From contig JAIVFI010000028.1 in assembly GCA_025558095.1 (NCBI GenBank), forward strand, positions 186,001 to 250,000: DNA of 64,000 nt, in the 5' to 3' direction. This DNA is from Hyaloraphidium curvatum. Lineage: Eukaryota > Monoblepharomycota > Hyaloraphidiomycetes > Hyaloraphidiales > Hyaloraphidiaceae. Made by a program: the position numbers and the translations under genes. The stretch's first letter is position 1; every line of letters starts with the position of its first letter. This document shows positions 12,257 through 57,169 of this stretch, piece by piece. Below the pieces are notes generated by a model. That model worked only from the letters and a program-made list of their open reading frames with translations, was not told the origin of the DNA and searched no databases.

Positions 12257-12503
12257 GAGCACGGCAGCCACGCGGGGGCAGAAGGGAGGGCTGCCGATGA
12301 GTTCGAGGGCGTCGAGCCGCGGGTGCTGACGCGTGTGCGGAGCGAGGTTCAGAGTGGGAGACAGATGTTGGAGCGCGCCAACGAAAGGGGCGGAGAGTTC
12401 AACGCCCTACGGACGGGCTGGCCATTTTGTGCAATCATGCGCTTCTGTCTATTGCGGTCGGTACATTGATGCTTTCGGATGTTACTCGCCGGCAGCGCGG
12501 AGA

Positions 12504-13591: not shown

Positions 13592-13781
13592 TGCGCAAGG
13601 TCGCGATGCGACGCGCGGGGCAGAGTGAGTGGGGGGCAGTTCTCGGCAGTCACTCAGGGGCCGGGGTCCCGCGGGCCAACCACGGAAACGCCGTCGCGAC
13701 CCCGCCCGGCTTGGCGCCATTCGTTCGGCACTACAAAAAGCCGGATCGCCGCCGCATTCCACTTTGCTTCAATCGTCCAGC

Positions 13782-16030: not shown

Positions 16031-16151
16031 CCTGCCCGTCGGTGGAGAAAAGTGGACGGCATTGGAGCACCGCGAGTTTCGCATATTGATATAGGGAACC
16101 AACGTGGTTTGCATGGATAAAAGTGACTGTCTGAGCACCTCGTCTGCAGCC

Positions 16152-17642: not shown

Positions 17643-18580
17643 GGTGCCGCTGAGCCGGCGCCAACGCGGAAAGAAGAGCTGGCAATGGGTCGGAGAGCGG
17701 CCACGGCACCACCAACGCGTGGCGCTGAACGAGCTTCGAGTAAATGGGAGACGGAAGGACTCGAATGTCGCCGCCCCGCCCGCCTCGCCGCATGGGCCCT
17801 TGAGTGGCTGGCACTCGCCAAGACCGCACATCACAGGCTCCGAGTTGGCGGACCTTCCACAACGTGATGGCAAAGTAATGCGATGACCTTTAGCATCGCG
17901 GCATGTTTGCTTTCGGGCGCGTTGTTTTCTTTTCGCGGACGGTGGGCAATCCGTTCCGGTTTCTGAAAGACAGTCCTCTGGGCATGCTTGTCGGTCCAGA
18001 AGTGGGCCCACCAATGGGCACAGGCACGGCTATTGCAGTGAGCTGGCAAAAGAGGCAAAAGATGGATTCCGTATAGAAGTTTGCTTGGCCCTTTCGATTG
18101 ACTGAAGACCGTCCATGATTGACAGCGGCCAGCGGTCTTCCCCCGCGTTCCCCTTCAAGAAAACGTGTCGAGCCTAATCAGAACCCGTGTGATTAGCGCA
18201 AGTAAGACCCGAAGCGGTGCATGATGGGTAGTTGAGTCCAGATGGTCGCAGGTCTCCGAAGGACCTGGGTGGGGGGAAAGGGCGCTTGGCAGTCCCATTT
18301 CAGTGTCTCCATATATGCTTCGCTGCAGAACGAATCAAAGAGCAAGAAGACCACGAAGCTGAGGGGAAGCACATTGAGGGTGATGGAATATAGGGGCGCC
18401 GATGCAGAACAAGCTTTTCCGATTTTCCGAGTGAGTCGATCGGCGCGTGATGGGGACACTGTTCCGCTTCCGCACGGTCGCGCGAGGGATCGATCCATCC
18501 ACGTCAGGAGGCTCCCGAGGGACTGCCTCCCCCACGTGCGGGCGCCGCCGGGAGGACGGCATCGCTCTTCGGGAGCCGCG
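17643..18580. other. Long intergenic region
   Basis: About 940 bp between the divergent PRISE copy 2 and glycosyltransferase genes. It is less GC-rich than the genes. ORFs here lack family motifs and codon-like composition. An open frame from 18242 runs into the glycosyltransferase but looks like 5' UTR. Promoters of both genes are expected here; nothing more was recognised. Confidence 0.5.
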
Positions 18581-34827: not shown

Positions 34828-36054
34828 CTATGTCGCCACTGCAAGGGATGTCAGCGTGGATCCGCTCTCCGCGAGCGCAAGCCTCACCTGGCGGTATGTC
34901 CGCGACTTGACTCGCGTACTGCCGATCATAAGCGAGAGCGATGCGCAGGCGGAGGTGGGACCCACCTTGTCGAACATCCACCTGTACTTCCACTCGTCCT
35001 TCGGCAGCCCCGGGCAGGCGAAGTTTGCCCTGTAAGCCTCCACCTCCTCCCTCGCTTTCGGGTCATCGACCCCTTTGCGGGTCCCGTTGAACAGGGTAAA
35101 CATGTTCATCGCCCACGCGCCCGCGATGTGCCAGATAAAGTCCCCCGGCCGCCACGGGTCCCTGTCGCGCTGGCAGTCGATCTCGACCGGATAGGCGTTG
35201 AACCTCTTCTGCGGGACCACGTATGTCCGCGAGCGCAGCTCTGCGTCCTCCCTGAGCAGCCGCACAAACTCGCCCTGCTCGTTGTCCCTGGGCGTGCGGG
35301 CCAGCAGGGTCGCGAACACGCGGCCGAGCAGGCCGAACATGTAGGGCGACGAGCGGACGAGGAAGGAGCCCGTGTTGGCCGAGTTGCAGTCCTCGGCCAC
35401 CACGAAATCCGGCAGGTGGTCCGGCCGCCCCCTCGTGTCGGCCTGCGCGGCCGCGGCGCCGCCGCACCCGTTCCCGAGCCCCGGGATCAGATCGTCGATC
35501 CGCGCGGTCATGTTCGTAATGAGCGTGTCGAGGTCCAACCACCACACGTAGGCGGCCGAGGGATACAGCTCCAGCGCCTCGATCAGAGCGCCGACCTTGA
35601 CCCAGTACCCGATGTAGCGCCCGTCGTGGCTCTTGTCGGGACGGTTCCAGCGCTTCCGGGCCATCCCGAACGGCGTCCGCGTGGGGTCCGGCGGCATCGC
35701 GTCCAGGGATTCCACGCCGCAGTCCGGCTCCCGCGGGTACAGCGCGGCGTCGCCGACGTCCACGAGGTGCGACCACGAAAACACGGGATGGAAGGCCACG
35801 CGGGGCCGGTGCAAGAGCGCGTATCGCTGCTTGTTGGCCAGCGAGCGGATCGCGTACGGCGCGTCCTTTGTCGCCGCCGTGACGATCACCACGAGCGGGC
35901 CGGGCGGCGGCGCGTCGGGGAGCGCTCCGGCGCGTAAGGCGGGCGCGGGCGCGCTCGGCGGGGCCGGCGCGGGCGGCGCGGGGCTGCGAAGCACCAGCGC
36001 CGCCGCGAACGCGCACGCGGCGAGGACGGCGCCGACGAACCACCGGCGCCGCAT
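34828..36054 (-). CDS. GMA12/MNN10-type galactosyl- or mannosyltransferase (GT34)
   Basis: ATG 36054 is followed by a signal anchor (WFVGAVLAACAFAAALVL) and a Pro/Ala stem, as in Golgi type II enzymes. The catalytic domain has WWLDLDTLITNM, the DxD metal/nucleotide-sugar site of GT34, then DFVVAEDCNSANTGSFLVR and PGDFIWHIAGAW, all characteristic of the family. These enzymes extend N-glycans or wall polysaccharides with galactose or mannose. The 3' end is ambiguous: read straight through it gives 408 residues, but two possible introns (47 and 49 nt, with branch-like sites) would shorten the C terminus after MFDK while ending at the same stop. Confidence 0.8.
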   Translation of the reverse strand: MRRRWFVGAVLAACAFAAALVLRSPAPPAPAPPSAPAPALRAGALPDAPPPGPLVVIVTAATKDAPYAIRSLANKQRYALLHRPRVAFHPVFSWSHLVDVGDAALYPREPDCGVESLDAMPPDPTRTPFGMARKRWNRPDKSHDGRYIGYWVKVGALIEALELYPSAAYVWWLDLDTLITNMTARIDDLIPGLGNGCGGAAAAQADTRGRPDHLPDFVVAEDCNSANTGSFLVRSSPYMFGLLGRVFATLLARTPRDNEQGEFVRLLREDAELRSRTYVVPQKRFNAYPVEIDCQRDRDPWRPGDFIWHIAGAWAMNMFTLFNGTRKGVDDPKAREEVEAYRANFACPGLPKDEWKYRWMFDKVGPTSACASLSLMIGSTRVKSRTYRQVRLALAESGSTLTSLAVAT

Positions 36055-36286
36055 GTGGGATGACTCGACCAGGGACGCAGTGCAAATTGATCGACGCCGC
36101 CCGGACAAACACAGATGTCCCTGGGCGGATTCCCCTTCCGATGGCCCATTCGTTGAAATCGTTCCCTTTGAACGGTGTGATGTATCTTCTCTACCGCATC
36201 GCGTGAGGAATGGGAGCCAGCTTCGCCACCCGCCGAACCATTCTTCCTTCGTGCTACATCGATCGCCCACCGCATCCGCCCCAGCC

Positions 36287-38521
36287 CTATTGGTTCTCCC
36301 CCCTCACCCGCCGCTGGTACCTCCACGCCCTCTCCCTCCACACCCTCTCCTCGTGCGCCGTCACCGGCCCCGCCACCCCCTCCCTGCTCCTCACCGCCCT
36401 CGCCACATCCACCACGGGGTCCACGGGCGCCCGCATCCTCCCCGCGCGGTCGAAATCGAACCGCGGCGCCTCCGCGGCCGGCTTCCCGGACTTTTCGGCG
36501 CGCCGGAGCTCGGCGGCCCGCGCCTCGGCCTCGAGCCGCGCGATCGTCTCCGCCGCGCGGGTCGGCATCCTCGCCGGCCGCGAACTGGGCTCCTCCAGGC
36601 CCTCGTTTCCCCCCCTCCCCGCGACGGCGGACGCGCGGTCGTACCGCTTGCCGCCCTCGGGATCGGTCGACAGGCTCAGGCGCTCCTTCCCGAGCAGGGC
36701 CAGGAGGGAAGCCGGGTCCGACGCGGCGTCGGGGGTCCGGCGGAGGGCGCGGGAAAAGGCGGGGATGTCGCGGGGCATGAGCGACAGCACGGGCTCGTGG
36801 AGGCCTGCCGCGCGGTGGGGTCAGCGACGCGACGATGGCGGGGGAGCAGGGAGGGACCGACCGAGCTCCCGGAAGATGACGCTGGCCTGGGGGGACCACT
36901 CGACCTTCCAGTAGGCGATGCCGACGGGGGTGAGGTTGTGCGCGCGCATCATCCTCAGGAAGGGCAGCGCGGCGATCCTTCGCGGGGGGGAGGGGAGGGG
37001 TCAGCGCCGGCCCCCGCGGCGGCCCCGAAGGCGGCGCAGGACGTACCTCTCCCTGATCCGATGCTTCTGCTCCCCCTCCCCGTCGTGGTCCCGAACCCAA
37101 GGCGACCTCCCCTCCACCCCCTCCACCTCCCTGCCCTCGGGCAACCGGATGTCCACCTCCCCCTCCTGCTCGCACACGACCGCCACCACCCTGTGCCACA
37201 GGTTCGGGCTCTGCTTGGCGGGGTGGGGGGGGAGGTAGGGCACGGCGCAGTGCGCGGGGTCGGCGAGGTCCAGGGTGAGGATGGGGCGCGGGGGGAGGTT
37301 GGTGTGCAGGGAGAGGAGGAGGGATTCGTACGAGGCCGTGTCGAGGCGGGGGTAGTCTGCGAAGGGGGGGGGGGGGGGGGCAAAAGCGGGGGCGACACGA
37401 TGGAGGGGAGGGTGAGAAGGGCGCGGGGGGAACGGGAGGCGCGCCGGGAGCCCACCGAGGTCCATGACGGCGACGGTCAGCAGCTTCTCCCTGCCCCGCG
37501 GCGCCGACCCGTCCGGGAAGCTCTCGATCTTGATCTTCGGGGGCGTGCGCCTGCACTCGGTGCCGTCGCCCTTGTACCTGCTGACCGGCGACATGTGCAG
37601 CGGGACGAGCGGCACGTCGGTCCGCCTGCTGAACCGCTCCGTGGCGATCCCCCGCTCCTTCTCGAACAGGGCCGTGACGGCGACCGACGGCTCGAACGCG
37701 TCGTGCAGCCCGAACAGGTCGACGAGCACCGCGTCCCGCGTCATGTGGTCCAGCAGGATGGGCAGCGTGATCTTCTGGAACACGTCCCTCTTGAGCGGCA
37801 GCAGCGCCTCGTCCTCGGGGTGCGTCCCGAACTCGCGCGCGTTGCGCGCGGGGAGCAGCTCCCTCAGCTGCGGGTCGGCGAATGCCAGCTCGTCGGCGCG
37901 GTTGCGCCTGCGCGCGGCCAGCAGCGCGCGGTCCGGGTCGGCGAGGTCCGGGTCTGCCAGGCGCGCGTCGAGCGAGGCCAGCTCGGCGCGGACCTTGGCG
38001 ACCTCTGCGTCGATCACGGCGAGGGCGAGGCGGTACGCGGCGTCTGCGGCGGATGGGGGCGGTGGTGCGGGCGCGGAGGGCGGCCCGGGTCGCGGGGCAT
38101 CGCGGGGCCCCGGTGCCTCGGAGGCCTCGCTTGCGGCGGCCGGCTGCTGTGCGGGTTCGGTGGAGTCGCCCTCGGTGGCGTGCGCCCGCCCGACGGGCCC
38201 CTCCGCCGCGATGGCGTCCGCCTTCCCCTCGGGCGCCGCGCCCTCCCGCGCGCCCTCCGCCGCCGGCACACCCGCATCCGCCGCGGCGCCCGCGGCCCCC
38301 GCCGCCCCCGCGCTTCCCTCCCCGCCCCCCGCGGCGTCCGGCCCGCCCGCGGCGAACCCGCGCGCGAACCGCGGCGCGGGGCGCGGGACCGCTCCCGCCC
38401 GCGGCGCCGCGCCCGCCCGCGGGGGGCCCGCACGCCGCGGCACCGCCGCGTGCGCGAGCAACGATAGTCGCCGGCCCGCCGCCGCGCGGAGCAGCGCGAG
38501 CGCGTCCGTGGGGGGCGCCAT
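36287..38521 (-). CDS. Mitochondrial large-ribosomal-subunit protein mL38 (MRPL35-like, PEBP fold)
   Basis: Four exons (38521-37456, 37356-37047, 36977-36862, 36804-36287) give 669 residues. The N terminus is Arg/Ala-rich without acidic residues for about 60 positions, as in a mitochondrial presequence, followed by a long Ala/Pro low-complexity region. The PEBP-fold core matches fungal mL38: DYPRLDTASYESLLLSLHTN formed across intron 1, CAVPYLPPHPAKQSPNLWHR, and FLRMMRAHNLTPVGIAYWKV in the small exon 3. The C-terminal part is charged. It would be a structural protein of the mitoribosome central protuberance. It is much longer than the yeast protein because of the low-complexity N terminus. Intron 1 carries a 17-base homopolymer. 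Confidence 0.8.
37364..37380. repeat. Run of 17 G (C on the coding strand)
   Basis: An uninterrupted homopolymer inside intron 1 of the mL38 gene, close to the 3' splice site at 37357, where it forms an extreme polypyrimidine tract. Confidence 0.95.
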
Positions 38522-38751: not shown

Positions 38752-39499
38752 CTAGTACACGCACGGCTCCACCTCGAGCCGCACCGCAAACTCCCTCTCC
38801 ACCGCCGCCGCCACCTCGACCCCCAGCAGCCACACGTCCGCGCCCGTCGCCCCGCCCCCGTTCAGCAGCCACAGCCCGTGCTTGTCCGACACCCTCGCCC
38901 CGCCCCTCCGGCGTCCTTTGAGCCCGCACCGCTCGATCATCCACCCCGCGTGCACCAGGGTCCCCTCGGAGGCGCCGATCTCGAGACGGGAGCAATCTGG
39001 GGCGCGGGCAAGCAGCGCTCGCAGCGCATCCCCACGCATCACCGGGTTCTTAAAGAAGCTCCCCGAGCTGCACCTGCCCTCCGGATCGGGGAACGACGCG
39101 CGGCGCACCTCTTCGACCCAACGTGCCACCTGCGCAGGGGTAGGCCGATCGCACGGGTCCCGCGCCGCTCGCGCCGCAAGGGCGGGGTACGAAAGCCGGG
39201 CTACCCATGCCCAGTCGGCCCGTGGCAGCGCGAATCGCACGCTGATGATCAGATATCGCCCCTTCTCGCTCTTGAATGCCGAGTCCCTGTGCCCAAATGC
39301 GCACCGTTCGGCGTCCCAGGTCTCGAGCTTCCCCAGATGAAGGTCCACCGCATCCAGGGAGCGGAAATGGTCCGACACGGACGCGCCGTACGCACCGACG
39401 TTCTGCACCGGCGCACCGCCGGCCGTGCCGGGGATCAGCGCGAGGTTCTCGAGCCCCCCAAGGTCCTGTCCGATCGTCCACCGGACAAAGGCGTCCCAC
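38752..39499 (-). repeat. Inverted-repeat arm 1 (MurB end of copy 1)
   Basis: The MurB-coding 3' end is essentially identical to 46533-47280 in inverted orientation: translations agree in all compared frames over about 620 bp (38882-39499), with one residue differing near the end. The similarity stops at the stop codons. Confidence 0.85.
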
Positions 39500-41118
39500 G
39501 GCTCCCCAGCACCGGCCTCCACGACCGCCTTGCCGTCTTCCGTCCCGCCAACCACCCTCCGCCCCGAGATCTCGACCCGAAGTACGGCACCTGGGAAATG
39601 ACCCCTGGGGAACAGCACGTTGCTCCCCCCGCCCAGCACCATCAGCGGCATCCGTCCCGCCAGCGCGCGGCCGGTGCGCAGGGCGTCGTCCGCGGTGCGG
39701 ATGGGGACCAGCAGGGCACAGGTGGCGGGGAGGTGCAGGGTGGTGAGCTCCGAGAGGTCGGCGTCGGCGATCGTGCCTTCCGGCAGCCCGTTCAGCACGG
39801 CATCAGGGAGAGTGCCGCACGCCGTGGCCCCGCGCAGCCGCACGACGTCCGCGCCCAGGCCCCGCAACTTGCCCTCCAGGTCCTCGTAGCCCCTGTCCAC
39901 CACGCCGGCCCTCGCGACCACCGTCGTCCCCGGCGCCGCCAGCGCCGCGATCAGCAGCGCCGCCGCGCCCCTCAGGTCCTTCCCCCTCACATGGGTCGCA
40001 CCCATCAGCACCTGCGTCCCCCGCACGTGCATATCTCCCCCTTTTGAGGAGATTTCGGCGCCCATGCGGGCGAGCTCGCCGGCGTGCGAGGTGCGCCGGG
40101 GGTACACCGCGTCTGACACGGTGCACTCGCGGCCGGGGGGGAGGAGGCAGCACAGGGCGGTGTAGGGCTGCTGCAGGTCAGTCAAGAAGGCGGGGTGGTC
40201 CCCCGCCGCAATGCTGGGCGGGGTTGGACGGACCGCGGGGGAGGTGGGTGACCGGATTCGGATGCCGTCGGGGAGGGAGTCGACGGTACATCCGGCGGCG
40301 CGGAGGGCATCGACGAGGGATTCCAGATGCTGGAGCTCGGCGCCTTGCACCAGCACGTCGCCGCCACATGCGGCCGCGGCGATCATGAAGGTGCCCGCCT
40401 CGGTGCGGTCGGGCATGACCGAGTGGGAGGCGCCGGCGAGGGTCTCGGCTCCGCGGATGCGGATGGTCCGCGTGCCGGCGCCCGAAATGGAGGCGCCCAT
40501 CTTTGTCAGGAGGGATGCGACGTCGGCCACCTCGGGGTCCAGCGCCGCGTTGTCGATAACACTCTCGCCAGGGGCCAGCGCGGCCAGCATCAGCGCGTTC
40601 ATGGTCCCCGTCACCGTCGGCCTGCGGAATTCGATGCGTGCGGCACTGATCGGCCCGCGGGCCTCGATCTCCCCGTCCTCGCCAGTGGCAACGACGGCGC
40701 CCATCTGCCGCAGCACGCCGACGTGCATGTCGAGCGGGCGCGGCCCGATGGCGCACCCCCCCGGCGGCGCGGGCAGGTGCGAGCGTCCGAGCCGTGCGGT
40801 GAGGCCGAGCAGCAGCACGGCGGCGCGGGACGCGGTGCACAGCGCCGGCGGCGGAGGCGGGGCAAGCCCCCGCGGGCACGGCCCCACGGCCACCGTCCCG
40901 TCCGGCAGCCGCCCGGCGGGGCACCCGATCGCCCGCAGCAGCCGCATCGCGCAGTCGACGTCGGCGATGCGCGGCACGTTGGCCAGCCGCGTCCTCGCGG
41001 AGCCCAGCGCCGCGGCGAACAGGCAGCCCAGCGCGGCGTTCTTGGAGCCCGCCACGGCCACCGCGCCGAGCAGCGGGCGGCCGCCGCGGACGACGAACGC
41101 GCCGCCGTCGTCGTCCAT
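38752..41118 (-). CDS. murA-murB fusion: MurA-MurB fusion, copy 1 (UDP-GlcNAc enolpyruvyltransferase / UDP-MurNAc dehydrogenase)
   Basis: A single exon of 788 residues. Residues 1 to about 440 are MurA: GSKNAALGCL (Lys-Asn pair binding UDP-GlcNAc), active-site Cys and Arg in PPGGCAIGPRPLDMH, TVTGTMNALMLAAL, catalytic Asp in AFLTDLQQPYTAL, DLRGAAALLIA and VDRGYEDLEGKL. From about 475 it is MurB: LGGGSNVLF (FAD loop), IPGTAGGAPVQNVGAYG, GHRDSAFKSEKGRY, catalytic Ser in SSGSFFKNPV and a C-terminal Glu region (REFAVRLEVEP). MurA adds enolpyruvate to UDP-GlcNAc; MurB reduces it to UDP-MurNAc with NADPH. The protein is probably cytosolic (no targeting signal). It is head-to-head with a glycosyltransferase gene at 41190. 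Bacterial origin is inferred. Confidence 0.92.
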   Translation of the reverse strand: MDDDGGAFVVRGGRPLLGAVAVAGSKNAALGCLFAAALGSARTRLANVPRIADVDCAMRLLRAIGCPAGRLPDGTVAVGPCPRGLAPPPPPALCTASRAAVLLLGLTARLGRSHLPAPPGGCAIGPRPLDMHVGVLRQMGAVVATGEDGEIEARGPISAARIEFRRPTVTGTMNALMLAALAPGESVIDNAALDPEVADVASLLTKMGASISGAGTRTIRIRGAETLAGASHSVMPDRTEAGTFMIAAAACGGDVLVQGAELQHLESLVDALRAAGCTVDSLPDGIRIRSPTSPAVRPTPPSIAAGDHPAFLTDLQQPYTALCCLLPPGRECTVSDAVYPRRTSHAGELARMGAEISSKGGDMHVRGTQVLMGATHVRGKDLRGAAALLIAALAAPGTTVVARAGVVDRGYEDLEGKLRGLGADVVRLRGATACGTLPDAVLNGLPEGTIADADLSELTTLHLPATCALLVPIRTADDALRTGRALAGRMPLMVLGGGSNVLFPRGHFPGAVLRVEISGRRVVGGTEDGKAVVEAGAGEPWDAFVRWTIGQDLGGLENLALIPGTAGGAPVQNVGAYGASVSDHFRSLDAVDLHLGKLETWDAERCAFGHRDSAFKSEKGRYLIISVRFALPRADWAWVARLSYPALAARAARDPCDRPTPAQVARWVEEVRRASFPDPEGRCSSGSFFKNPVMRGDALRALLARAPDCSRLEIGASEGTLVHAGWMIERCGLKGRRRGGARVSDKHGLWLLNGGGATGADVWLLGVEVAAAVEREFAVRLEVEPCVY

Positions 41119-41189
41119 CGGCCGGGGCCTTGGCCGGACGCGAGGACAGCCATGCGGACGCCGGAATTAAACAACCAACCGACGGCGGG
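41119..41189. promoter_or_regulatory. Bidirectional intergenic region of MurAB copy 1 and glycosyltransferase A
   Basis: Only 71 bp separate the two start codons (or 11 bp if the glycosyltransferase starts at 41130). Promoter elements for both genes must overlap here or lie inside the coding regions. No specific motif was recognised. Confidence 0.5.
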
Positions 41190-41981
41190 ATGGGCACCGT
41201 CCGCCGGCTGGCGCAGTCTTGCTCCACGGCCGCCGCGCTGCTGCTGCTGCTGCTCCTTCCCCGGGCCCGGCGGCCCGACGCCGGCCGGCCGCCGCGGCAC
41301 CCTCGCGGCGCCCCGCTCATCGCCAACGCGACCACCGCGATCGTCGTTTCCTACCGGTACGGCCACCTCGCGGCTCACGCCCTCGAGACGGCGCTGGCCC
41401 AGACCCGCCCCTTCGATTTCATCTGGTTCGCCGACGATGCCGCCGGCGACTGCGCGCACCTCCCCGCGCTCTACCCCGAGGTCTCGTTCTTCCTCCGGCG
41501 GGAACGCCTCGGCACGGTGGCCAACTTCCAGGACCTCCTGGACCGCGTGTCCACCGAGCGCTTCGCCTTCTTCGGCGCCGACAACTGGCTCCGCGAGGAC
41601 CTGCACGAACGCCTGGCGTCGCACGCCGCGGACGCGGTCAAGTACGACCTCGCGGTCGTCGGCGACCCCCGCGGCGAGTCGTACGCCGTCCGGCACCACG
41701 GCGGCCCGGCCCGCAGGCAGATGCGCCGCGAACCGGGCTGGTGGCACTGGGACATGTCGTCGCTGCACAGCGGGTCGATGCTCCTCCGGACCGCCGCCGT
41801 GCGCGCCGCGGGGGGGTACGCGGGGACCAGCCGCAGGGCCGGGATGGGGGCCGAAGCGCGGAGGACGGAGGAGGACAGGGACCTATACGCGGCGATGCTG
41901 GCGCGCAACGCCAGCGTGGTGCACGTGCCCGAGGCGCTGCTGTACTACCGCCGGCACAGGGCAAACCACAACCCGCCATGA
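41190..41981 (+). CDS. Membrane-anchored GT-A glycosyltransferase A (GT2-like)
   Basis: 263 residues from ATG 41190; an in-frame ATG at 41130 would add 20. A signal anchor (STAAALLLLLLLPRARR) leads to a compact GT-A-like domain: TTAIVVSYRYGHLAAHALE, PFDFIWFADDAAGD, LGTVANFQDLLDRVSTERF, then FFGADNWLREDL, where ADN probably serves as the metal-binding DxD. Later SSLHSGSMLLRTAAVRAAGGY and EALLYYRRHRANHNP are shared by all three local copies. An NATT sequon follows the stem. It would act in the ER/Golgi lumen or at the surface. The sugar donor is unknown; pairing with MurA-MurB suggests a muramic-type donor, which is inference. Confidence 0.7.
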   Translation: MGTVRRLAQSCSTAAALLLLLLLPRARRPDAGRPPRHPRGAPLIANATTAIVVSYRYGHLAAHALETALAQTRPFDFIWFADDAAGDCAHLPALYPEVSFFLRRERLGTVANFQDLLDRVSTERFAFFGADNWLREDLHERLASHAADAVKYDLAVVGDPRGESYAVRHHGGPARRQMRREPGWWHWDMSSLHSGSMLLRTAAVRAAGGYAGTSRRAGMGAEARRTEEDRDLYAAMLARNASVVHVPEALLYYRRHRANHNPP

Positions 41982-42560
41982 GAGGGAGGTGGGCCTCGCG
42001 GGCGTGGCCGGATCGGTTTCGCTGGGTCTCGATTCCTATTAGGCACTTCGCACGGTGGCGACTCAAGTTGTGTCGACCCCCCCGCACGTGGGACGACGGT
42101 CGGCCGGCCTCGCCGCCGCGGCTGGATGCCATCAAGTAGAAGGGCGAGGTCCACGCTCGTACCGTACCGCAGTCGTCGAAGCCACCACGCGCCAGCCTTG
42201 ACGCCGCCGCTGCAGAACCGAAAATGGATTCCCATGATCACGAATCCCGGCCGGGCTTTCTTGAGCACCGCTGGATGCCCGCAGCCGCGATTGCCGGGCA
42301 CGTCACGCGACGAACGTGCCGTTTTCGACCGGAAAGGGCAGCTGCAGAGGTGGTCTTAACCCCGGAAGCGGCCCTTTCGGAAACCACACGTGCCACGCTG
42401 CCGCTATCGGAACCGTCCCAGCGTCCGACCACCGGGAAGAATCTTGATCGGCCGTCGATGTACCGGACATTAATCGACGCAGGGTGCGGGCGATGCCCCG
42501 TTTTTCGGGACGCGTAAACAACCCGCCACCAATCGGGTCTTGGTGCGGACAAACGCCGAC
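41982..42560. other. Intergenic region between glycosyltransferases A and B
   Basis: About 580 bp with mixed base composition. No open frame with protein-like sequence, RNA gene or repeat was recognised. It should hold the promoter of copy B. Confidence 0.5.
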
Positions 42561-43397
42561 ATGGGCATCGACCGCCGGCTCGCGCCGCCAATCGCGGTAG
42601 CCGCGTGCCTGCTGACGGCCTGGGGTCCGTGGCATGCCGCTGCCCCCGCTCCGCCGGCCGCCCCCGGCGCGGCGGGCATTCCGGGCGCCGCATCGCCAGA
42701 GTGGCCGCCCCGCCACCCGCCGGGCGAGCCGCTCATCCCGAACGCCACGACGGCGATCTTTGCCTCGTTCAAATACGGCCACCTGGCGGCCCACGCCCTC
42801 GAGACGGCGCTCGCGCAGACCCGCCCCTTTGATTTCATATGGTTCGCCGACGACGCCGCGGGCGACTGCGCGCACCTCCCAGCGCTGTACCCCGAGGTCA
42901 CCTTCATCTTGCGCCCCGTGCGCCTCGGCACGGTTGCCAACTTCCAGGACCTGCTGGACCGCGTGGCCACGGAGCGGTACCTCTTCTTTGGCGCCGACAA
43001 CTGGCTACGCGAGGACCTACACGAGAAGCTGGCATCCGCCGACGCCGACGTCGTCAAGTACGACCGGACCGTCGTCGGCGACCCGCACGGGGAATCGGGG
43101 CTGGTGCGGCACCACGGCGGCCCCACCCGCAGGCAGATGCGCCGCAGCCCCGACGGGTGGCGCTGGGACATGGCCTCGCTGCACAGCGGGTCGATGCTCC
43201 TCCGGACCGCTGCCGTGCGTGCCGCGGCGGGTTACGCGGGGACCAGCAGCAGGGCGGGGATGGGCGCCGGGGCGCGGAGGGCCAACGAGGACGCGGACCT
43301 GTACGCGGCGCTGAGGGCGCGCAACGCGAGCGTGGTGCACGTGCCGGAGGCGCTGCTGTACTACAGGCGGCACAGGGCGAATTTCAATCCGTCGTGA
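42561..43397 (+). CDS. Membrane-anchored GT-A glycosyltransferase B (GT2-like)
   Basis: 278 residues from ATG 42561. A hydrophobic N terminus (APPIAVAACLLTAW) and a Pro/Ala stem precede the same domain as copy A: PFDFIWFADDAAGD, LGTVANFQDLLDRVATER, FFGADNWLREDLHEKL, ASLHSGSMLLRTAAVR and EALLYYRRHRANFNPS. It is a tandem duplicate of A in the same orientation, but several segments (ADADVVKYDR, VGDPHGES) are closer to C. This copy alone has no MurA-MurB partner next to it. Confidence 0.7.
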   Translation: MGIDRRLAPPIAVAACLLTAWGPWHAAAPAPPAAPGAAGIPGAASPEWPPRHPPGEPLIPNATTAIFASFKYGHLAAHALETALAQTRPFDFIWFADDAAGDCAHLPALYPEVTFILRPVRLGTVANFQDLLDRVATERYLFFGADNWLREDLHEKLASADADVVKYDRTVVGDPHGESGLVRHHGGPTRRQMRRSPDGWRWDMASLHSGSMLLRTAAVRAAAGYAGTSSRAGMGAGARRANEDADLYAALRARNASVVHVPEALLYYRRHRANFNPS

Positions 43398-43820
43398 GGC
43401 GGTGCCGGATGCGCGGGATCGGCTGTACAGTATCTCGTCGTTGGATATAACATGGGATCGGCCGCCGCCGCCCCAAACCCAGAGGGATATCGCAGCCCGC
43501 CGCGCCGGGCCTCCCCGCCCATCCCTCTCCAAGCCTGCCCGTCTTCCCCGCTGGCGGTTCCGACAGCGCCTCCGCGTCCCCGAGCGCGGAGCCCAGCCCC
43601 TTCGTGGCCGGCGGGCCGGGGGTGCACGGCGCCGGCCTTGCGACGGGGCACGGGCCGGCGACCCGGCCACGCACGGGGCCGGGTGGTGGCACTGCTCTGA
43701 CGAAGCTGTAACAGAAGCGTCGTTCGGGCGATGATGGATTCGGAGTGCGCCCAACGAGCGGTCCCAAATGATCGGGTCGCTGCTTTCCCATGCTGAGGCG
43801 CCGCGCCGATCGCCCCGCCC
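43398..43820. other. Intergenic region between convergent glycosyltransferases B and C
   Basis: About 420 bp of shared 3' flank. Several ORFs overlap here but none has family motifs. No RNA gene or repeat recognised. Confidence 0.5.
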
Positions 43821-44699
43821 TCACGACGGATTGAAGTTGGTCCTGTGCCGGCGGTAGTAGATCAGCGGCTCGGGCACGTGCACCACGGTCGCGTTGCGCC
43901 GGCGCAGCGCCTCGTACAGGTCTTGGTCCTCCGCGGTCTTCTGCACCGCGACGCCCGCCCCGGCCACGCGGGACGTTCCCTTGTACCCGCCCGCGGCGCG
44001 CACAGCCGCCGTACGGAGTAACATCGACCCGCTGTGCAGGAAGGTCATGTTCCAGTACCAGCCGTCCGCCGCGCGGGTGAGCTCCGGGCCGGCGTGGAAC
44101 TTCACCACCTCCGACGTCCCGTGGGGGTCCCCGACAATCGACCGGTCGTACTTGACCACGTCGGCGTCGGCGGATGCCAGCTTCTCGTGGAGGTCCTCGC
44201 GCAGCCAGTTGTCGGCACCGAGGAACAGGTAGCGCTCGGTCGCGACGCGGTCCAGCAGGTCCTGGAAGTTGGCCACCGTGCCGAGGCGTTCCCGCCGGAG
44301 GATGAAGGTGACCTCGGGGTAGAGCGCTGGGAGGTGCGCGCAGTCGCCCGCGGCGTCGTCGGCAAACCAGATGAAATCGAAGGGGCGGGTCTGCGAGAGA
44401 GCGGTTTCGAGGGCGTGCGCCGCCAGGTGGCCATATTTGAACGAGGCAAAGATCGCCGTCGTTGCGTTGGGGAGCAGCGGAGCGCCCGGCGGGTGCCGCG
44501 GCGGCCAGGCGGGGGGGTCGCTGTGCGCCGCGGTAGCCGGGGTTGCTGTGTCGCGTGGGGGCGCATCGTGGAGGCTAGCGGGTGGCGGCGTCGTTGTTGC
44601 CGCGGCGTTCCAGTGCATCGGGGCCGCCACGAGCAGCAACAGCGCGGCGGCGGCGGCAGCGGCAATGGGCAAGGCCCACCGGCGGGCCCCGGCGCCCAT
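43821..44699 (-). CDS. Membrane-anchored GT-A glycosyltransferase C (GT2-like)
   Basis: 292 residues from ATG 44699, chosen because a signal anchor (ALPIAAAAAAALLLLVAA) follows; the open frame extends upstream into the MurA-MurB gene on the other strand. The stem is longer than in A and B. The domain keeps PFDFIWFADDAAGD, LGTVANFQDLLDRVATER, FLGADNWLREDLHEKL, MTFLHSGSMLLRTAAVR and EPLIYYRRHRTNFNPS. The central part (VVKFHAGPELTRAADG) differs most from A and B and may set acceptor choice. It is head-to-head with MurA-MurB copy 2, mirroring copy A and copy 1. Confidence 0.7.
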   Translation of the reverse strand: MGAGARRWALPIAAAAAAALLLLVAAPMHWNAAATTTPPPASLHDAPPRDTATPATAAHSDPPAWPPRHPPGAPLLPNATTAIFASFKYGHLAAHALETALSQTRPFDFIWFADDAAGDCAHLPALYPEVTFILRRERLGTVANFQDLLDRVATERYLFLGADNWLREDLHEKLASADADVVKYDRSIVGDPHGTSEVVKFHAGPELTRAADGWYWNMTFLHSGSMLLRTAAVRAAGGYKGTSRVAGAGVAVQKTAEDQDLYEALRRRNATVVHVPEPLIYYRRHRTNFNPS

Positions 44700-44895
44700 C
44701 CCGGTTGCTGCTGAAGTAGAGGGCTTCCGGCACGGAGCAACAACGTCGATTATCGTCACCGCAGCCCCCGCCCGGGTATCCGTTTCGAGCGATGCAAACG
44801 AGAAAGGGACGGATGAAACAAGGGATGCCGGCGGCTTGCGGCCATCCGGCCACTCAATCGAGGGACGAAGAGCAACAAAACAAGGCACGCCCGGG
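44700..44895. promoter_or_regulatory. Bidirectional intergenic region of glycosyltransferase C and MurAB copy 2
   Basis: 196 bp between the two start codons. The MurA frame is open through it (an ORF reaches back to 44371), but conserved MurA sequence begins only at 44896. No specific promoter motif was recognised. Confidence 0.5.
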
Positions 44896-47280
44896 ATGGA
44901 GGACGACGGCGGCGCGTTTGCCGTACGCGGCGGCCGTCCGCTTTTCGGCACCGTCGCCGTGTCGGGCTCGAAAAACGCCGCGCTGGGTTGCCTCTTTGCC
45001 GCGTCCCTCGGGCGCGGCGAAACGCTCCTGGCCAACGTGCCGCGCATCGCCGACGTCGACGCGGCGATGGAGCTGCTGCGGGCCATCGGATGCCCCGCCG
45101 ACCGGTTGGCGGACGGCACGGTGGCGGCGGGGCCCATGGCCGGCCCCGGTCCGCGGGATCACCAAGCGGCGGCGGCCCCCCCAGCGGCCCTCTGCGCGCG
45201 ATTCCGGTACTCGATATTGCTGCTCGGCCTGACAACGCGCTTGGGACTCTCCTGCCTGCCCGCGCCGCCCGGGGGGTGCGCCATCGGGCCGCGCCCGCTC
45301 GACATGCACGTCGGCGTGCTGCGGGAGATGGGCGCAGTCGTTGCCATTGGCGAGGACGGGGAGATTGAGGCCCGCGGGCCGATCAGTCCCGCACGCATCG
45401 AATTCCGCAGGCCGACGGTGACGGGGACCATGAACGCGCTGATGCTGGCGGCTCTGGCCCCTGGCGAGAGTGTTATCGACAACGCGGCCGTCGACCCCGA
45501 GGTGGCCGACGTCGCATCCCTCCTGACAAAGATGGGCGCCTCCATTTCGGGCGCCGGCACGCGGACCATCCGCATCCGCGGAGCCGAGACCCTCGCCGGC
45601 GCCTCCCACTCGGTCATGCCCGACCGCACCGAGGCGGGCACCTTCATGATCGCCGCGGCCGCATGTGGCGGCGACGTGCTAGTGCAAGGCGCCGAGCTCC
45701 AGCATCTGGAATCCCTCGTCGATGCCCTCCGCGCCGCCGGATGCACCGTCGACCCCCTCCCCGACGGCATCCGAATCCGGTCACCCACCTCCCCCGCGGT
45801 CCGCCCAACCCCGCCCAGCATTGCGGCGGGGGACCACCCCGCCTTCTTGACTGACCTGCAGCAGCCCTACACCGCCCTTTGCTGCCTCCTCCCTCCCGGA
45901 AGCGCGTGCACAGTCTCAGACGGCGTGTACCCCCGGCGCACCGCGCACGCCGGCGAGCTCGCGCGGATGGGCGCCGACATCTCCTCAAAAGGGGGCACCA
46001 TGCACGTGCGCGGGACCAAGGCGCTGTTGGGCGCCACCCACGTGAGGGGGAGGGACCTGAGGGGCGCGGCGGCGCTGCTGATCGCCGCAATGGCGGCGCC
46101 GGGGACAACGGTGGTCGCGGGGGCGAGCGTGGCGGACAGGGGCTACGAGAATTTGGAGGGCAAGCTGCGCGGGCTGGGCGCGGACGTCGTTCGGCTGCGC
46201 GGGGCCACGGCGTTCGGCACTCTCCCTGATGCCGTCCTGCGCGGTCTTCCGGGCGGCACGATCGCCGACGCCGACCTCTCGGAGCTCACCACCCTGCACC
46301 TCCCCGCCACCTGCGCCCTGCTGGTCCCCATCCGCACCGCGGACGACGCCCTGCGCACCGGCCGCGCGCTGGCGGGACGGATGCCGCTGATGGTGCTGGG
46401 CGGGGGGAGCAACGTGCTGTTCCCCAGGGGTCATTTCCCAGGTGCCGTACTTCGGGTCGAGATCTCGAGGCGGAGGGTGGTTGGCGGGACGGAAGACGGC
46501 AAGGTGGTCGTGGAGGCCGGTGCTGGGGAGCCGTGGGACGCCTTTGTCCGGTGGACGATCGGACAGGGCCTTGGGGGGCTCGAGAACCTCGCGCTGATCC
46601 CCGGCACGGCCGGCGGTGCGCCGGTGCAGAACGTCGGTGCGTACGGCGCGTCCGTGTCGGACCATTTCCGCTCCCTGGATGCGGTGGACCTTCATCTGGG
46701 GAAGCTCGAGACCTGGGACGCCGAACGGTGCGCATTTGGGCACAGGGACTCGGCATTCAAGAGCGAGAAGGGGCGATATCTGATCATCAGCGTGCGATTC
46801 GCGCTGCCACGGGCCGACTGGGCATGGGTAGCCCGGCTTTCGTACCCCGCCCTTGCGGCGCGAGCGGCGCGGGACCCGTGCGATCGGCCTACCCCTGCGC
46901 AGGTGGCACGTTGGGTCGAAGAGGTGCGCCGCGCGTCGTTCCCCGATCCGGAGGGCAGGTGCAGCTCGGGGAGCTTCTTTAAGAACCCGGTGATGCGTGG
47001 GGATGCGCTGCGAGCGCTGCTTGCCCGCGCCCCAGATTGCTCCCGTCTCGAGATCGGCGCCTCCGAGGGGACCCTGGTGCACGCGGGGTGGATGATCGAG
47101 CGGTGCGGGCTCAAAGGACGCCGGAGGGGCGGGGCGAGGGTGTCGGACAAGCACGGGCTGTGGCTGCTGAACGGGGGCGGGGCGACGGGCGCGGACGTGT
47201 GGCTGCTGGGGGTCGAGGTGGCGGCGGCGGTGGAGAGGGAGTTTGGGGTGCGCCTCGAGGTCGAGCCGTGCGTGTACTAA
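44896..47280 (+). CDS. murA-murB fusion: MurA-MurB fusion, copy 2 (UDP-GlcNAc enolpyruvyltransferase / UDP-MurNAc dehydrogenase)
   Basis: A single exon of 794 residues, the inverted paralogue of 38752-41118. ATG 44896 matches the start of copy 1 (MEDDGGAFAVRGGRP against MDDDGGAFVVRGGRP). MurA part: GSKNAALGCL, PPGGCAIGPRPLDMH, AFLTDLQQPYTAL, ADRGYENLEGKL. MurB part: LGGGSNVLF, IPGTAGGAPVQNVGAYG, RDSAFKSEKGRY, SSGSFFKNPV. It differs most from copy 1 near residues 75-110, where it has a longer loop (GPMAGPGPRDHQAAAAPP), and at scattered sites between MurA and MurB. All catalytic residues seen in copy 1 are kept. It is head-to-head with glycosyltransferase C. Both copies are probably functional. 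Confidence 0.92.
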   Translation: MEDDGGAFAVRGGRPLFGTVAVSGSKNAALGCLFAASLGRGETLLANVPRIADVDAAMELLRAIGCPADRLADGTVAAGPMAGPGPRDHQAAAAPPAALCARFRYSILLLGLTTRLGLSCLPAPPGGCAIGPRPLDMHVGVLREMGAVVAIGEDGEIEARGPISPARIEFRRPTVTGTMNALMLAALAPGESVIDNAAVDPEVADVASLLTKMGASISGAGTRTIRIRGAETLAGASHSVMPDRTEAGTFMIAAAACGGDVLVQGAELQHLESLVDALRAAGCTVDPLPDGIRIRSPTSPAVRPTPPSIAAGDHPAFLTDLQQPYTALCCLLPPGSACTVSDGVYPRRTAHAGELARMGADISSKGGTMHVRGTKALLGATHVRGRDLRGAAALLIAAMAAPGTTVVAGASVADRGYENLEGKLRGLGADVVRLRGATAFGTLPDAVLRGLPGGTIADADLSELTTLHLPATCALLVPIRTADDALRTGRALAGRMPLMVLGGGSNVLFPRGHFPGAVLRVEISRRRVVGGTEDGKVVVEAGAGEPWDAFVRWTIGQGLGGLENLALIPGTAGGAPVQNVGAYGASVSDHFRSLDAVDLHLGKLETWDAERCAFGHRDSAFKSEKGRYLIISVRFALPRADWAWVARLSYPALAARAARDPCDRPTPAQVARWVEEVRRASFPDPEGRCSSGSFFKNPVMRGDALRALLARAPDCSRLEIGASEGTLVHAGWMIERCGLKGRRRGGARVSDKHGLWLLNGGGATGADVWLLGVEVAAAVEREFGVRLEVEPCVY
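46533..47280 (+). repeat. Inverted-repeat arm 2 (MurB end of copy 2)
   Basis: Partner of 38752-39499. Recombination between the arms would invert the roughly 7-kb segment that holds the three glycosyltransferase genes. Confidence 0.85.
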
Positions 47281-53014: not shown

Positions 53015-54991
53015 ATGGAAGGAAATCGAAGCGTTCCGGTACCGGGACGGATGGCGAGGCGCAGCCGGGTTCCTGCGCCCGGGTTGCGGTCCGGGTCCGC
53101 TGCCGGCGCCACGTTCCTCCTGGCACTGGCGAACGCCAACTGCGCCTCCGCGGCCGGCGCAAGAGATACGGCGCACTCCACCATAGGAATGCTCGTCATT
53201 TTTTTCTACCTGCTGTGTGTGGTGGGAATTTTGTGCGGCAACGCCGAACTCCGCGAGCGGTCGAGGCTGGTGATCGTTACCGTGGCGTGCTGCGCCGGAT
53301 TGTTTTCATTCGGGTCTGCGCCCTCTGTGCCTGCTGACACCGCAATCAACGTGACGAAAGCCGCCGGGGCGGAACGGCTTCTGTGTGATGGCGATGATAT
53401 GCTGCTAGCGCGCATCAAAGATGCTGAACTTCTGCGGCAAGACGAACGGCTCGCAAGGATGCAGGCGCAATCGGCCCTTCAGGAGGCAGCCAAATCGCTG
53501 GATACCGCGACGGCCGAAAAGGACGAGTGCCTCGCCCGCATCGAGGACTGCGAGAACATGCTGAAGGAAGAGCAGCTCGCCAAAACGCAGGCAGAAGCAA
53601 CCCTGCAGCAGATGTCAAAATCCCTGGATACATTGCTGGGCAAGCTGGGACCCCTGCAGGCCGAGAGGGACGCATTGCTCTTGCGCAACAAGGACGCCGA
53701 GCTCCTGCTTAAGGACGAGCGATTCGCCAGGAAGAAAGCGTACTCAACTCTGCAGGAGACCGGAAGGTTGCTGGGGGAGTCCCGAAGGAACCGGGAGGCA
53801 TGCCAGGGCGATCTTTCCGCTGCCAAGCTCGAGTGCCGCAACCGAACCCGCATTGGATCTGCGTGCCCGATCGCAACGTTGCCGGACAGTGGCCTTACGA
53901 AAGCGCTAGCGAGTCTCGCATGGATGCTCGTCGCCGCCGGGGCCGGCGCCCTGGCTATGGCGATCGTACGGAGTGGTAACGAGCAGGGCCAAAACGCGCC
54001 GATGTCCGATCCATTTAGGAAAGACGCCGGCGTTCAAGCTTATCTTCCCCAGGAATCCGTGGAGGACACGGTGCGGGAGCCCCACCCATCCGCGGACTCG
54101 AACCACCTTGAGGAAGAGCTTGTGGTGCTGCATGCGCAAAGCCCCCCCTCCCCCCCCTATACCCCCGACCATATGAGTATGGTTGTCGGGAATGAATCCG
54201 GGGAACCCAACGATTCCTGCGTCGAAGATTCCGGCCGGGACCTTTCCAGTGAGGTGCCCGACGCTGCGCGTCTCGACGACGCCATCTTCTCCAACGAACC
54301 CAGTTCAAATGGCGAGCTTTTGGAAGCTCACACCATCGGAAGCTTCGCCGACTCGGCCCCAGCTCACGAAGAGCTGCCCACCGTTGCCCAAATGGAGTCG
54401 TTGCTTCTTGAAGTATCGACCAGGGAACACGAGGACTTCGTCTCGGAGCTGCAGGTGCGACTGGAGACCCTGGAAAGGAACATGGCCGATGCGTCTGCAA
54501 TGCAAGGTTGCGTAGCGGCCGAGAGCGAGGAGCTCCGAAAGGAAGTGCAGCGGCAGCGCGACTCTTCCAGCGCATCGGCTGCGCGGATCGCAAACCTGGA
54601 ATCGGAGCTCTTAAGTGCTCTTTCGCAATTGGAAAGGTGGGTTGACCAACGACGGGAGTCTTGTCGGAACCTGCTCAAAGGAACCTACCTCAGGTGCAAC
54701 GTCATGATTCCCAAAATCATGGACCGGATGCGTAACAAGCCCCAAGAGATCAGGGTGGTACCACGCAGCAAGACTGCACGCGCATCCAGCCCTGCGCCCG
54801 GCAAGGCCGGCAATCCGAGCGCCCCGAGCTGTCACCCTTCTGTTCTGAGCAATGAGGCGCTCCTCGCCGCGCTGGAGCAGGAAGTAGCGAATGCCGGCCA
54901 GCTAGAGCTCGACATCAGCGAGCGTTCACAAAGGACGGTGGCGGGAGATTTGATGAAGGCCATGTTCGGTGGCGCAAAGCACGCCAAGTAG
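53015..54991 (+). CDS. Coiled-coil membrane protein, unknown family
   Basis: A single exon of 658 residues. Two hydrophobic segments lie near the N terminus (IGMLVIFFYLLCVVGILCG and LVIVTVACCAGLFSFG) and a third near the middle (LAWMLVAAGAGALAMAIV). Between them a heptad-rich stretch repeats a motif of the type LLxKDERLARMQAQSALQEA, at least three times with about 60-residue spacing (LLARIKDAELLRQDERLA; LARIEDCENMLKEEQLA; LLLRNKDAELLLKDERFA). A second coiled coil spans about residues 455-550. No enzymatic motif is seen. It may be an organelle tether or scaffold. ATG 53015 is the first in the frame. Confidence 0.6.
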   Translation: MEGNRSVPVPGRMARRSRVPAPGLRSGSAAGATFLLALANANCASAAGARDTAHSTIGMLVIFFYLLCVVGILCGNAELRERSRLVIVTVACCAGLFSFGSAPSVPADTAINVTKAAGAERLLCDGDDMLLARIKDAELLRQDERLARMQAQSALQEAAKSLDTATAEKDECLARIEDCENMLKEEQLAKTQAEATLQQMSKSLDTLLGKLGPLQAERDALLLRNKDAELLLKDERFARKKAYSTLQETGRLLGESRRNREACQGDLSAAKLECRNRTRIGSACPIATLPDSGLTKALASLAWMLVAAGAGALAMAIVRSGNEQGQNAPMSDPFRKDAGVQAYLPQESVEDTVREPHPSADSNHLEEELVVLHAQSPPSPPYTPDHMSMVVGNESGEPNDSCVEDSGRDLSSEVPDAARLDDAIFSNEPSSNGELLEAHTIGSFADSAPAHEELPTVAQMESLLLEVSTREHEDFVSELQVRLETLERNMADASAMQGCVAAESEELRKEVQRQRDSSSASAARIANLESELLSALSQLERWVDQRRESCRNLLKGTYLRCNVMIPKIMDRMRNKPQEIRVVPRSKTARASSPAPGKAGNPSAPSCHPSVLSNEALLAALEQEVANAGQLELDISERSQRTVAGDLMKAMFGGAKHAK

Positions 54992-55065
54992 TGTTGATGT
55001 TCGCGAGCGGAAAAGTTGCTGCGGGACGCGCGTCACCGCACTCGGACCGACAGCGCGGACTTCCG

Positions 55066-57169
55066 ATGGACGAGCCGGACGCCGACGAGCACTTTCTCCC
55101 GTTCACCGACGACGACGACCTCGCGTCGTTCGACCCCGACGCGTTCGACGAAGGCGACTTCCCCGACTTCCCCGGCGACGACGCGCTGGGGGACGCCGAC
55201 GGCGGCTTCGACGGGACCGACCCGGACGACGCCGACGCCGCGGGCCGCCATGGAAAAGATGCTCCTGAAGGGCAACACCGCGGACAGCCGGCCAGCCCGC
55301 CTCAGCGGCGTGGTTCCGCCCCTCAAACACCCGCCAAGCCGGCCGCCCGCAGCGCCCCCCCTGCCCTCCAGTCGCCGTCCCGCGGGCGCGCCATGGCGCA
55401 GGCGGACGAGTCGGCAATGGGCCGCGTGTTCGCCGCCACAAAGAGCGGCATGACCGGCGAAGGCCTGCCGCTGGAGGAGCAGAAGCGCATCGTCTACGAG
55501 GCGACAAAGGACTCGGCCTTCTTCAAGCAGCAGCAGAAGCAGGACGCGAAAAACACGGAGCTCGTCACCGCGCTCAAGAAGAAGGTTACCGGGTTCACGG
55601 ACGCGCAGCTGGCCGCGTCCAAGAAGCACACGGACGCGCTGCTCGAGGAGCTCGAGGCCACGCGGGACCTGTCGCGGACCATCGTGCACATGGACGCCGA
55701 CGCCTTTTACTGCAGCGTCGAGGAGCGGGACGACCCCAGCCTCAAGAGCAAGCCTTTTGCCGTCGGCATGACGACCGCAAAGTGGGTTTTCGCGCCCGAC
55801 GATACCGGCCTCCCTTGACGGCCGTGCCAGCTACGTCGCGCGCCGGTACGGCGTCCGCTCGGGGATGGCCCCCTTCGTCGCCAAGGCCCTCTGCCCCGAC
55901 ATCATCATCCTGCACCAGGACATGCGCAAATATGTCGCCGCGAGCAACGAGATCAAGAAAGTGCTCCTCAAGTACCTTTCGGAGGAGACGGAGCTGTCCA
56001 TGGCATCCATCGGTGGGCTTCTTCCCCTCCCACGTGCTGCTTGCCCTCCCGCTGAACCCTGCCGCCCACCAGACGAAGCGTACCTAGATATCACGCGATA
56101 CATGCGCGAGCACAACCTCTCGGCCTCGGCCGTCGTGCAAAAGATCCGCGAGGACGTCTTTGCCACCACCGGCCTGACCTGCAGCGCCGGTGTCGCCCCC
56201 AACAGGAGCCTGGCCAAGGTCGCCAGCGACCTGCGCAAGCCCAACGGGCAGTTCGAGGTGCCCCCCGACCGCGACACGATCCTGCAGTTCTACCGCGCGC
56301 TGGGGATCCGCAAGGTGCAGGGGATCGGCAGCGTCAACGAGCGGTTCCTCCGCGAGGCCTTCTCCATCGAGACCATCGCCGACATCGGGCCCAAGCTCCC
56401 GCACCTGTTCCTCGCGTGGGGACGGGAACACATCGGCTTCTACGCCGGCGTCTACCTCGGGCTGGGCTCCAACGTGGTGGTGCAGCACCACGATACCAAG
56501 AGCGTGAGCAGCGAGACGACGTTCAGGGCGCTGGGGCAGGGGCAGGAGCTGCTGGATCTCCTGAGGGGGAGGTGCGAAGCGGTGGCGGGGGAGCTGAAGG
56601 AGAACAACTGGAAGGGGCGGTGTGTGACGCTGGTCTGCAAGGTGGGCGATCAGCAGGTCCTTGCGATCCGGCAACACGTAATGATAGGCCGTCCACAGAG
56701 GGCCGACTTCCAGCGCTTCTCGCGGCAGCAGAACCTCCTCGCCGACGTCTGCGAGGCCGACGACATCTTCGACGTCGTCCGCCGCCTTCTCGAGAAGGAG
56801 TTCCGCGCCGACCCCCGCCTGCGCCTCCGTCTGATCGGCGCGCGCGTGAACCGGCTCAGCGGCCCCGGCACCGACGGTGGCGCCGGGGAGGACGACGCCG
56901 GCGGGGTGCAAAAGCGGATCGTGGACTACGCCCCCGCGGAGCAGCCGGCGCAGCCGAAGGAGGCGGTCGCGTGTCCAGTGTGCGGGGCGACTTTCGAGGC
57001 TGGGACGGCGGACGTGGTGGTCTCGTCGCACGTGAACCGGTGCCTGGACAAGGGCGGGGAAAAGAGCCCGGCGGGGGGGAAGAGGCCGCGGTCCGGGGAT
57101 GCGGGGAGGGCGGGCGGGAAGAAGAGGGCGCCGGACGGGCAGCGGTCGATTCTGGGGTTCTTCCGCTGA
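55066..57169 (+). CDS. polK-like (DinB family): DNA polymerase kappa (Y-family translesion polymerase)
   Basis: Four exons (55066-55781, 55831-56012, 56073-56641, 56699-57169) give 645 residues. An acidic N terminus (about 1-100) is followed by the kappa-specific N-clasp (GMTGEGLPLEEQKRIVYEAT) and the Y-family core: metal-binding HMDADAFYCSVEERDDPSLK, YVARRYGVRSGM, SIDEAYLDIT (Asp-Glu pair, formed across intron 2), CSAGVAPNRSLAKVASDLRK and IRKVQGIGSV. The little-finger domain includes CKRADFQRFSRQQN across intron 3. The C terminus has a UBZ-type zinc finger (ACPVCGATFEAG, then SHVNRCLDKG) and a PCNA-binding motif, QRSILGFF, at the very end. It copies damaged DNA bypassing bulky lesions. A fragment of its 5' end is duplicated at 52.56 kb. 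Confidence 0.95.

Follow-up and report, generated by a model that had tools for sequence, protein, structure and literature searches.

The 64,000-nucleotide stretch of the Hyaloraphidium curvatum genome analyzed here (the window; positions 186,001 to 250,000 of contig JAIVFI010000028.1, or C28, in the 31.9-Mb, 55-contig assembly GCA_025558095.1) raises the question of why a eukaryote would carry the first two enzymes of a bacterial wall pathway, MurA and MurB, joined in a single chain and present in two copies. Copy A lies on the minus strand at 38752..41118 and encodes 788 amino acids, with MurA at approximately residues 8 to 430 and MurB at approximately residues 450 to 788. Copy B lies on the plus strand at 44896..47280 and encodes 794 amino acids; its start was placed by homology with copy A, and the mechanically called open reading frame begins further upstream. 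Each copy is one stop-free reading frame. A first-pass annotation made from the sequence had described two single-frame genes with a complete MurA and a complete MurB per chain, which Pfam, NCBIfam, and the open frames confirm, and all six MurA and MurB motifs that it quoted are present in the translations. To answer the question, we tentatively favor, with slightly less than even confidence, a cytosolic bifunctional enzyme whose product, UDP-N-acetylmuramic acid (UDP-MurNAc), would feed a glycan other than peptidoglycan.

Both halves of the fusion were recognized by family profiles. The Pfam domain PF00275 is complete in both copies (215 and 212 bits, profile positions 1 to 417 of 417), and FAD_binding_4 and MurB_C are found in copy A and copy B alike. 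The MurA halves pass the cut-off of the NCBIfam subfamily model PRK09369 (390 and 385 bits; cut-off, 297). The MurB halves pass two equivalog models, TIGR00179 (160 and 163 bits; cut-off, 144.5) and PRK00046 (298 bits for each copy; cut-off, 277), the latter being the best model for this half. At the level of sequence, the MurA and MurB scores rule out chance matches, and the MurB half is assigned to type I from its best match to PRK00046, the presence of the Tyr190 position, and its membership in the type I clade.

The active sites are largely preserved. We checked 10 MurA positions that we take to form the active site (Lys22, Asn23, Arg91, Cys115, Arg120, Asp305, Arg331, Asp369, Arg371, and Arg397); all 10 are kept in copy A when aligned to Enterobacter cloacae MurA, and the same 10 are kept in copy B by alignment to copy A. 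For MurB, we take Arg159, Ser229, and Glu325, with Tyr190 and Asn233, to be catalytic or binding sites (Escherichia coli numbering); comparison with solved structures showed all five of these positions to be kept. The Gln288 position is His in the fusion, as it is in 7 of the 16 other type I rows of the alignment. An AlphaFold2 model of the whole fusion, built from 11 sequences, had a mean predicted local distance difference test score (pLDDT) of 84.2 and a predicted template modeling score (pTM) of 0.61, and given this pTM the relative placement of the two halves in the model is unreliable. Foldseek matched the model to MurA 2z2c (template modeling [TM] score of 0.95 by target length) and to Pseudomonas aeruginosa MurB 4jay (TM score of 0.92). 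Judging from family, residues, and fold, the MurA half would transfer enolpyruvate from phosphoenolpyruvate (PEP) onto UDP-N-acetylglucosamine (UDP-GlcNAc), and the MurB half, dependent on flavin adenine dinucleotide (FAD), would use NADPH to reduce the resulting enolpyruvyl-UDP-GlcNAc to UDP-MurNAc. We consider it probable that the fusion carries out this two-step conversion.

If UDP-MurNAc is made, the adjoining genes offer a candidate user. Between the fusion copies lie three paralogous genes resembling family GT2 glycosyltransferases, which the first-pass annotation of this span did not mention. GT1 (41190..41981, plus strand) passes the PF00535 cut-off of 23.3 with 30.4 bits; its paralog GT2 (42561..43397, plus strand) is 79% identical to it, and GT3 (43821..44699, minus strand) is 76% identical to GT2. 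GT1 and copy A are arranged head-to-head with 71 bp between their starts, and GT3 and copy B likewise with 196 bp. In a simple hydropathy scan, a hydrophobic N-terminal stretch was seen in GT1 (2.02) and GT3 (2.49) and, more weakly, in GT2 (1.46); the fusion chain opens directly with the MurA domain, and its highest inner window reaches 1.97. Two further paralogs, approximately 64% identical, are located on contigs C15 (L146:4593-5892) and C39 (L147:4684-5837). These two copies share stretches that are approximately 97% identical, a recent between-contig duplication, and a few kilobases from the C39 paralog there is a Cys-loop ligand-gated ion channel domain (PF02931, 85 bits, L147:1123-2157).

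The history of the locus can be read in part from the two fusion copies, which are inverted relative to each other and 92.9% identical across 2.4 kb. Their synonymous divergence (dS) varies sharply along the alignment: 0.46 and 0.44 in columns 1 to 160, 0.06 and 0.05 in columns 161 to 320, 0.31 and 0.20 in columns 321 to 480, zero in columns 481 to 720, and 0.03 in columns 721 to 794. The nonsynonymous divergence (dN) in columns 1 to 160 is 0.13 and 0.18, well under dS in this unconverted part. We read this mosaic as an old inverted duplication that has been partly overwritten by gene conversion and kept under purifying selection. Pairwise dS among GT1, GT2, and GT3 is 0.50 to 0.54, close to the unconverted dS of the fusion, and the layout suggests that a fusion gene and its transferase were duplicated as one unit.

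We searched the genome for the enzymes that would be needed to carry UDP-MurNAc into peptidoglycan. These searches disregard introns and score first-look candidates only, and the absences hold at that sensitivity. No match to the Mur ligases MurC to MurF (PF08245) was found at an E value of ≤0.001 in the 31.9-Mb genome, a search that gave matches in 12 of 14 control genomes, and MraY and MurG had no match. MurB_C was found in the two fusion genes only. Four partial matches to the D-Ala-D-Ala ligase domain PF07478 (28 to 41 bits; cut-off, 24) could come from this ligase or from other ATP-grasp proteins. Elsewhere in the genome, 5-enolpyruvylshikimate-3-phosphate (EPSP) synthase is found only in a fused multienzyme shikimate gene on contig C11 (L148:1-2493), along with shikimate kinase, 3-dehydroquinase, and the N-terminal domain of shikimate dehydrogenase. 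Neither a light-harvesting protein nor the RuBisCO large subunit was found in the assembly, from which organelle contigs may be missing; on these two absences, the host appears nonphotosynthetic. With the later enzymes of the peptidoglycan pathway not found, what the fusion makes is presumably not built into peptidoglycan, and the failure to find other wall enzymes, together with the glycosyltransferase gene beside each copy, suggests a bacterial wall sugar put to another purpose. The first-pass annotation had proposed UDP-MurNAc or an enolpyruvyl sugar made for a new purpose; the new purpose is the likeliest reading, given that no Mur ligase, MraY, or MurG was found, while the production of UDP-MurNAc is argued from homology only.

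We next consider where the fusion came from. Among the best 80 of 103 MurA relatives in GTDB contigs, identity to the fusion is at most 43%, and a whole-genome search of 16 of those GTDB genomes gave a best-scoring relative at 44%. The MurB half was matched in 378 of 395 genomes of one phylum, the best-scoring relative among the matches listed being 40% identical. No closer relative of either half was seen among the listed matches from plasmid and phage collections, and Gammaproteobacteria entered the sample through plasmid-collection records only. In a careful MurB tree of 53 rows, the two copies sit on a stem of 0.93 inside type I, with clade support of 100/99; in a quick MurA tree of 93 rows, which carried long-branch warnings, they sit on a stem of 2.81. 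Neither tree, the kind of phylogeny that the earlier annotation had proposed for each half, resolved a sister. Because both stems are long and no sister is resolved, the fusion appears to be either an old acquisition or one whose donor lies outside the sample. On the reading that we favor, bacterial genes would have been acquired long ago and then fused, and the pair of enzyme and transferase would have been duplicated in inverted orientation afterward.

A fused arrangement was not encountered in the bacterial loci examined, in agreement with the first-pass annotation, which knew of no described fusion of this kind. No frame of at least 150 amino acids matched both MurA and MurB in 150 of 163 loci, the other 13 being loci of the H. 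curvatum genome itself. Six of the nine plasmid records with at least 80% coverage were examined (H21, H22, H24, H26, H28, and H29), and all have two separate frames; across the murA-murB pair, a Rhizobium plasmid locus (L010) shares 91% identity with record H25 and 97% with record H27. Four long bacterial MurB frames (G151, G298, G294, and G274), from among the matches listed for the 395 genomes of one phylum, contain no match to MurA. The first of these (L159:1272-3611, 779 amino acids) reads by eye as MurC-MurB and stands between MurG-like and Ddl-like genes. On plasmids of Salipiger (L153:5399-6854) and Sulfitobacter (L154:5480-6855), a type I murB adjoins a group III truncated hemoglobin gene, and the Sulfitobacter murB match underlies two annotated hypothetical proteins. 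A viral origin was considered and rejected: two scans of viral_contigs with a few narrow patterns gave no relative, and the best 50 of 310 viral fold matches included, at an E value of ≤0.001, only general FAD-binding proteins. MurA relatives are present in phage collections, in 60 records that each cover less than 80% of the query, and PHROG 25097 gave 332 bits, so that the negative viral result concerns the fusion and not MurA. The top matches of an open-license literature search described no MurA-MurB fusion and no eukaryotic use of UDP-MurNAc outside plastids.

In the explanation that we tentatively favor, UDP-MurNAc or a close lactyl-sugar nucleotide would be the donor for the head-to-head transferases, which would attach an acidic sugar of the MurNAc type to a glycan that is secreted or displayed at the surface. 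That the GT2-like enzymes work in the secretory pathway and there transfer the sugar to a glycan is a step on which we are close to evenly divided, leaning slightly against. The broader proposition, that a eukaryote with no peptidoglycan pathway puts MurNAc or another lactyl sugar into its own glycans by means of the fusion and the linked transferases, is plausible but somewhat doubtful. To our knowledge, no eukaryote has been reported to make MurNAc for its own glycans outside plastids.

Several observations weigh against this explanation. GT2 and GT3 fall below the PF00535 cut-off of 23.3 (20.4 and 21.5 bits), even though members of the family are 76 to 79% identical. The proposed localization comes from a simple scan of hydropathy, and there the N terminus of GT2 scores lower than the highest inner window of the fusion. 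The structure model of the transferase was poor (pLDDT of 38) and was discarded, and profile comparison of the GT genes with bacterial family GT2 enzymes was uninformative (probability of 1.3). The two paralogs on C15 and C39 have no MurB beside them. The dS of GT1 and GT3 is 0.54, compared to 0.50 and 0.52 for the other pairs, so that both other pairs are closer and duplication of the fusion and transferase as a unit is not proved. On the enzyme side, the MurA halves miss the murA equivalog TIGR01072 (365.5 and 360.8 bits; cut-off, 392.7), as do the accessory bacterial MurAs of Rhizobium (L010) and Qingshengfaniella (L092), and both copies have Ser at the MurB position equivalent to E. coli Lys217, where all 16 other type I rows have Lys or Arg.

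This Ser makes a changed substrate possible, and it is the starting point of the leading alternative, in which the fusion acts on another UDP-sugar and yields, instead of UDP-MurNAc, a different lactyl or enolpyruvyl sugar. The long stems in both trees fit such a shift, as does the lifting of the constraint imposed by peptidoglycan in a genome where no Mur ligase, MraY, or MurG was found. However, the remaining MurA and MurB positions that we checked are kept, and the Lys217 position also varies across the 35 remaining MurB rows of the alignment set. We regard a changed substrate as unlikely.

The product might instead be a small secreted compound, antibacterial or a signal, made from UDP-MurNAc or an enolpyruvyl precursor. 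NikO, an enolpyruvyl transferase that functions in nikkomycin synthesis, is the top fold match to the fusion model apart from MurA and MurB, and a Streptomyces plasmid has adjoining genes for MurA, a serine hydrolase, and MurB. Nevertheless, no secondary-metabolite enzymes were recognized beside the fusion genes, and the genes that are linked to them resemble glycosyltransferases, leaving this explanation improbable. It is very improbable that the host provides wall precursors to a bacterial endosymbiont. A partner could complete a pathway that in the host stops after its second step, but there is no sign of a symbiont in hand, the linked transferases would be left unexplained, and we know of no case in which UDP-MurNAc is exported to bacteria.

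There is only a slight chance that the locus represents a bacterial contaminant or a misjoined contig, as might be supposed from intronless genes of bacterial type and from a local GC content of 0.70 to 0.75, compared to 0.58 to 0.73 in the rest of the window. Codon use in the two copies correlates with eight host stretches at 0.968 and 0.976, where host stretches left out one by one gave 0.92 to 0.98 and seven bacterial mur genes gave 0.50 to 0.91; codon use alone is not decisive, because the top bacterial value (0.914) lies near the bottom host value (0.923). The diverged inverted copies enclose transferase genes that have family members on two other contigs, and the best-scoring bacterial relatives are only 44% (MurA) and 40% (MurB) identical. 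Pfam IMS matches a neighboring gene for a Y-family DNA polymerase, 7.6 kb from copy B at the beginning of its frame, across two overlapping frames (54856-55815 and 55772-57166) that are joined in frame by a 49-nucleotide GT-AG intron on the plus strand (55782..55830). This intron is one of 13 stop-free GT-AG joins and was picked by reading the joined residues, which in our judgment read like a Y-family polymerase. A weaker candidate intron (37455-37357) lies in the gene adjoining copy A. The fusion locus is eukaryotic, as the first-pass annotation had held: the neighboring intron, the host-like codon use, and the diverged inverted duplicate with gene conversion all support this setting. Finally, a plastid peptidoglycan pathway, remnant or working, as in glaucophytes and mosses, has a negligible chance of explaining the fusion. 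We rejected it on the failure to find Mur ligases, MraY, MurG, a light-harvesting protein, or the RuBisCO large subunit in an assembly from which organelle contigs may be missing, and on the lack of an N-terminal extension in the fusion, even though the known eukaryotic MurA and MurB serve such a pathway (PMC6704402 and PMC12681378).

Other frames near the fusion genes match an ABC transporter with ABC2_membrane_7, a MYND finger, WD40, and GT34. The GT34 (GMA12/MNN10) domain frame (34831..36303, minus strand; PF05637, 82.8 bits) possibly belongs to the same glycan cluster. Farther away, a direct repeat of approximately 1.5 kb occupies positions 10768-12257 and 16143-17643 of the window (86.7% identical), with matches to CoA-transferase III nearby (13629-16027 and 1093-1797).

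UDP-MurNAc counts as a hallmark of the way bacteria build their walls, and muramic acid in soils and sediments is taken to mark bacterial matter. If the favored explanation is true, the first two Mur steps would have a new use in a eukaryote, outside the plastid; muramic acid would be weakened as a bacterial marker; and how a eukaryote copes with a sugar that immune systems take as bacterial would become a question.

Compared to known systems, the MurA half shares with bacterial MurA the full-length domain, the 10 active-site positions, and the fold, but bacterial MurA is unfused, and the fusion is at most 44% identical to the MurAs found and falls under the TIGR01072 cut-off. With type I MurB of the E. 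coli and P. aeruginosa kind, it shares the FAD-binding and C-terminal domains, five residue positions, and the fold, whereas its MurB sits behind MurA and has Ser at the Lys217 position. Covalent joining of neighboring Mur steps is known from the MurB/MurC fusion of Verrucomicrobium spinosum, which has other partners, is found in a bacterium, and serves peptidoglycan (PMC4803751). The plastid enzymes of Cyanophora (PMC6704402) and Physcomitrium (PMC12681378) are also encoded by eukaryotic genes, but murA and murB are named there as separate genes and as part of a full plastid peptidoglycan set.

A likeness in gene order is found on bacterial plasmids. On a Qingshengfaniella plasmid (L092:9962-13199), murA, murB, and a GT2-family gene follow one another, and the 10 kb to each side contains no further annotated mur gene. 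A Rhizobium gallicum R602 plasmid (L010:5899-10744) has murA and murB followed by a GT2-family gene and a polysaccharide flippase gene. The murA-murB stretch is full length on five Rhizobium plasmids including this one, the one in which the downstream genes were read. A further row, on a Streptomyces mirabilis plasmid (L091:11953-15419), consists of murA, the serine hydrolase gene, and murB, with genes for a PIG-L deacetylase, a GNAT protein, and a phosphotransferase nearby. Over the stretches examined, the Rhizobium and Qingshengfaniella rows share with the H. curvatum locus the linkage of MurA, MurB, and a family GT2 enzyme apart from other wall genes, a parallel that counts in favor of the explanation that we prefer. 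They differ in that the proteins are separate, the MurAs and MurBs form their own clades, with MurB outside the type I clade, and the transferases have no detectable sequence kinship with those linked to the fusion. Because they form their own clades, these rows are an analog of the fusion locus and not its source, and they are themselves candidates for bacterial MurNAc-type polysaccharide genes.

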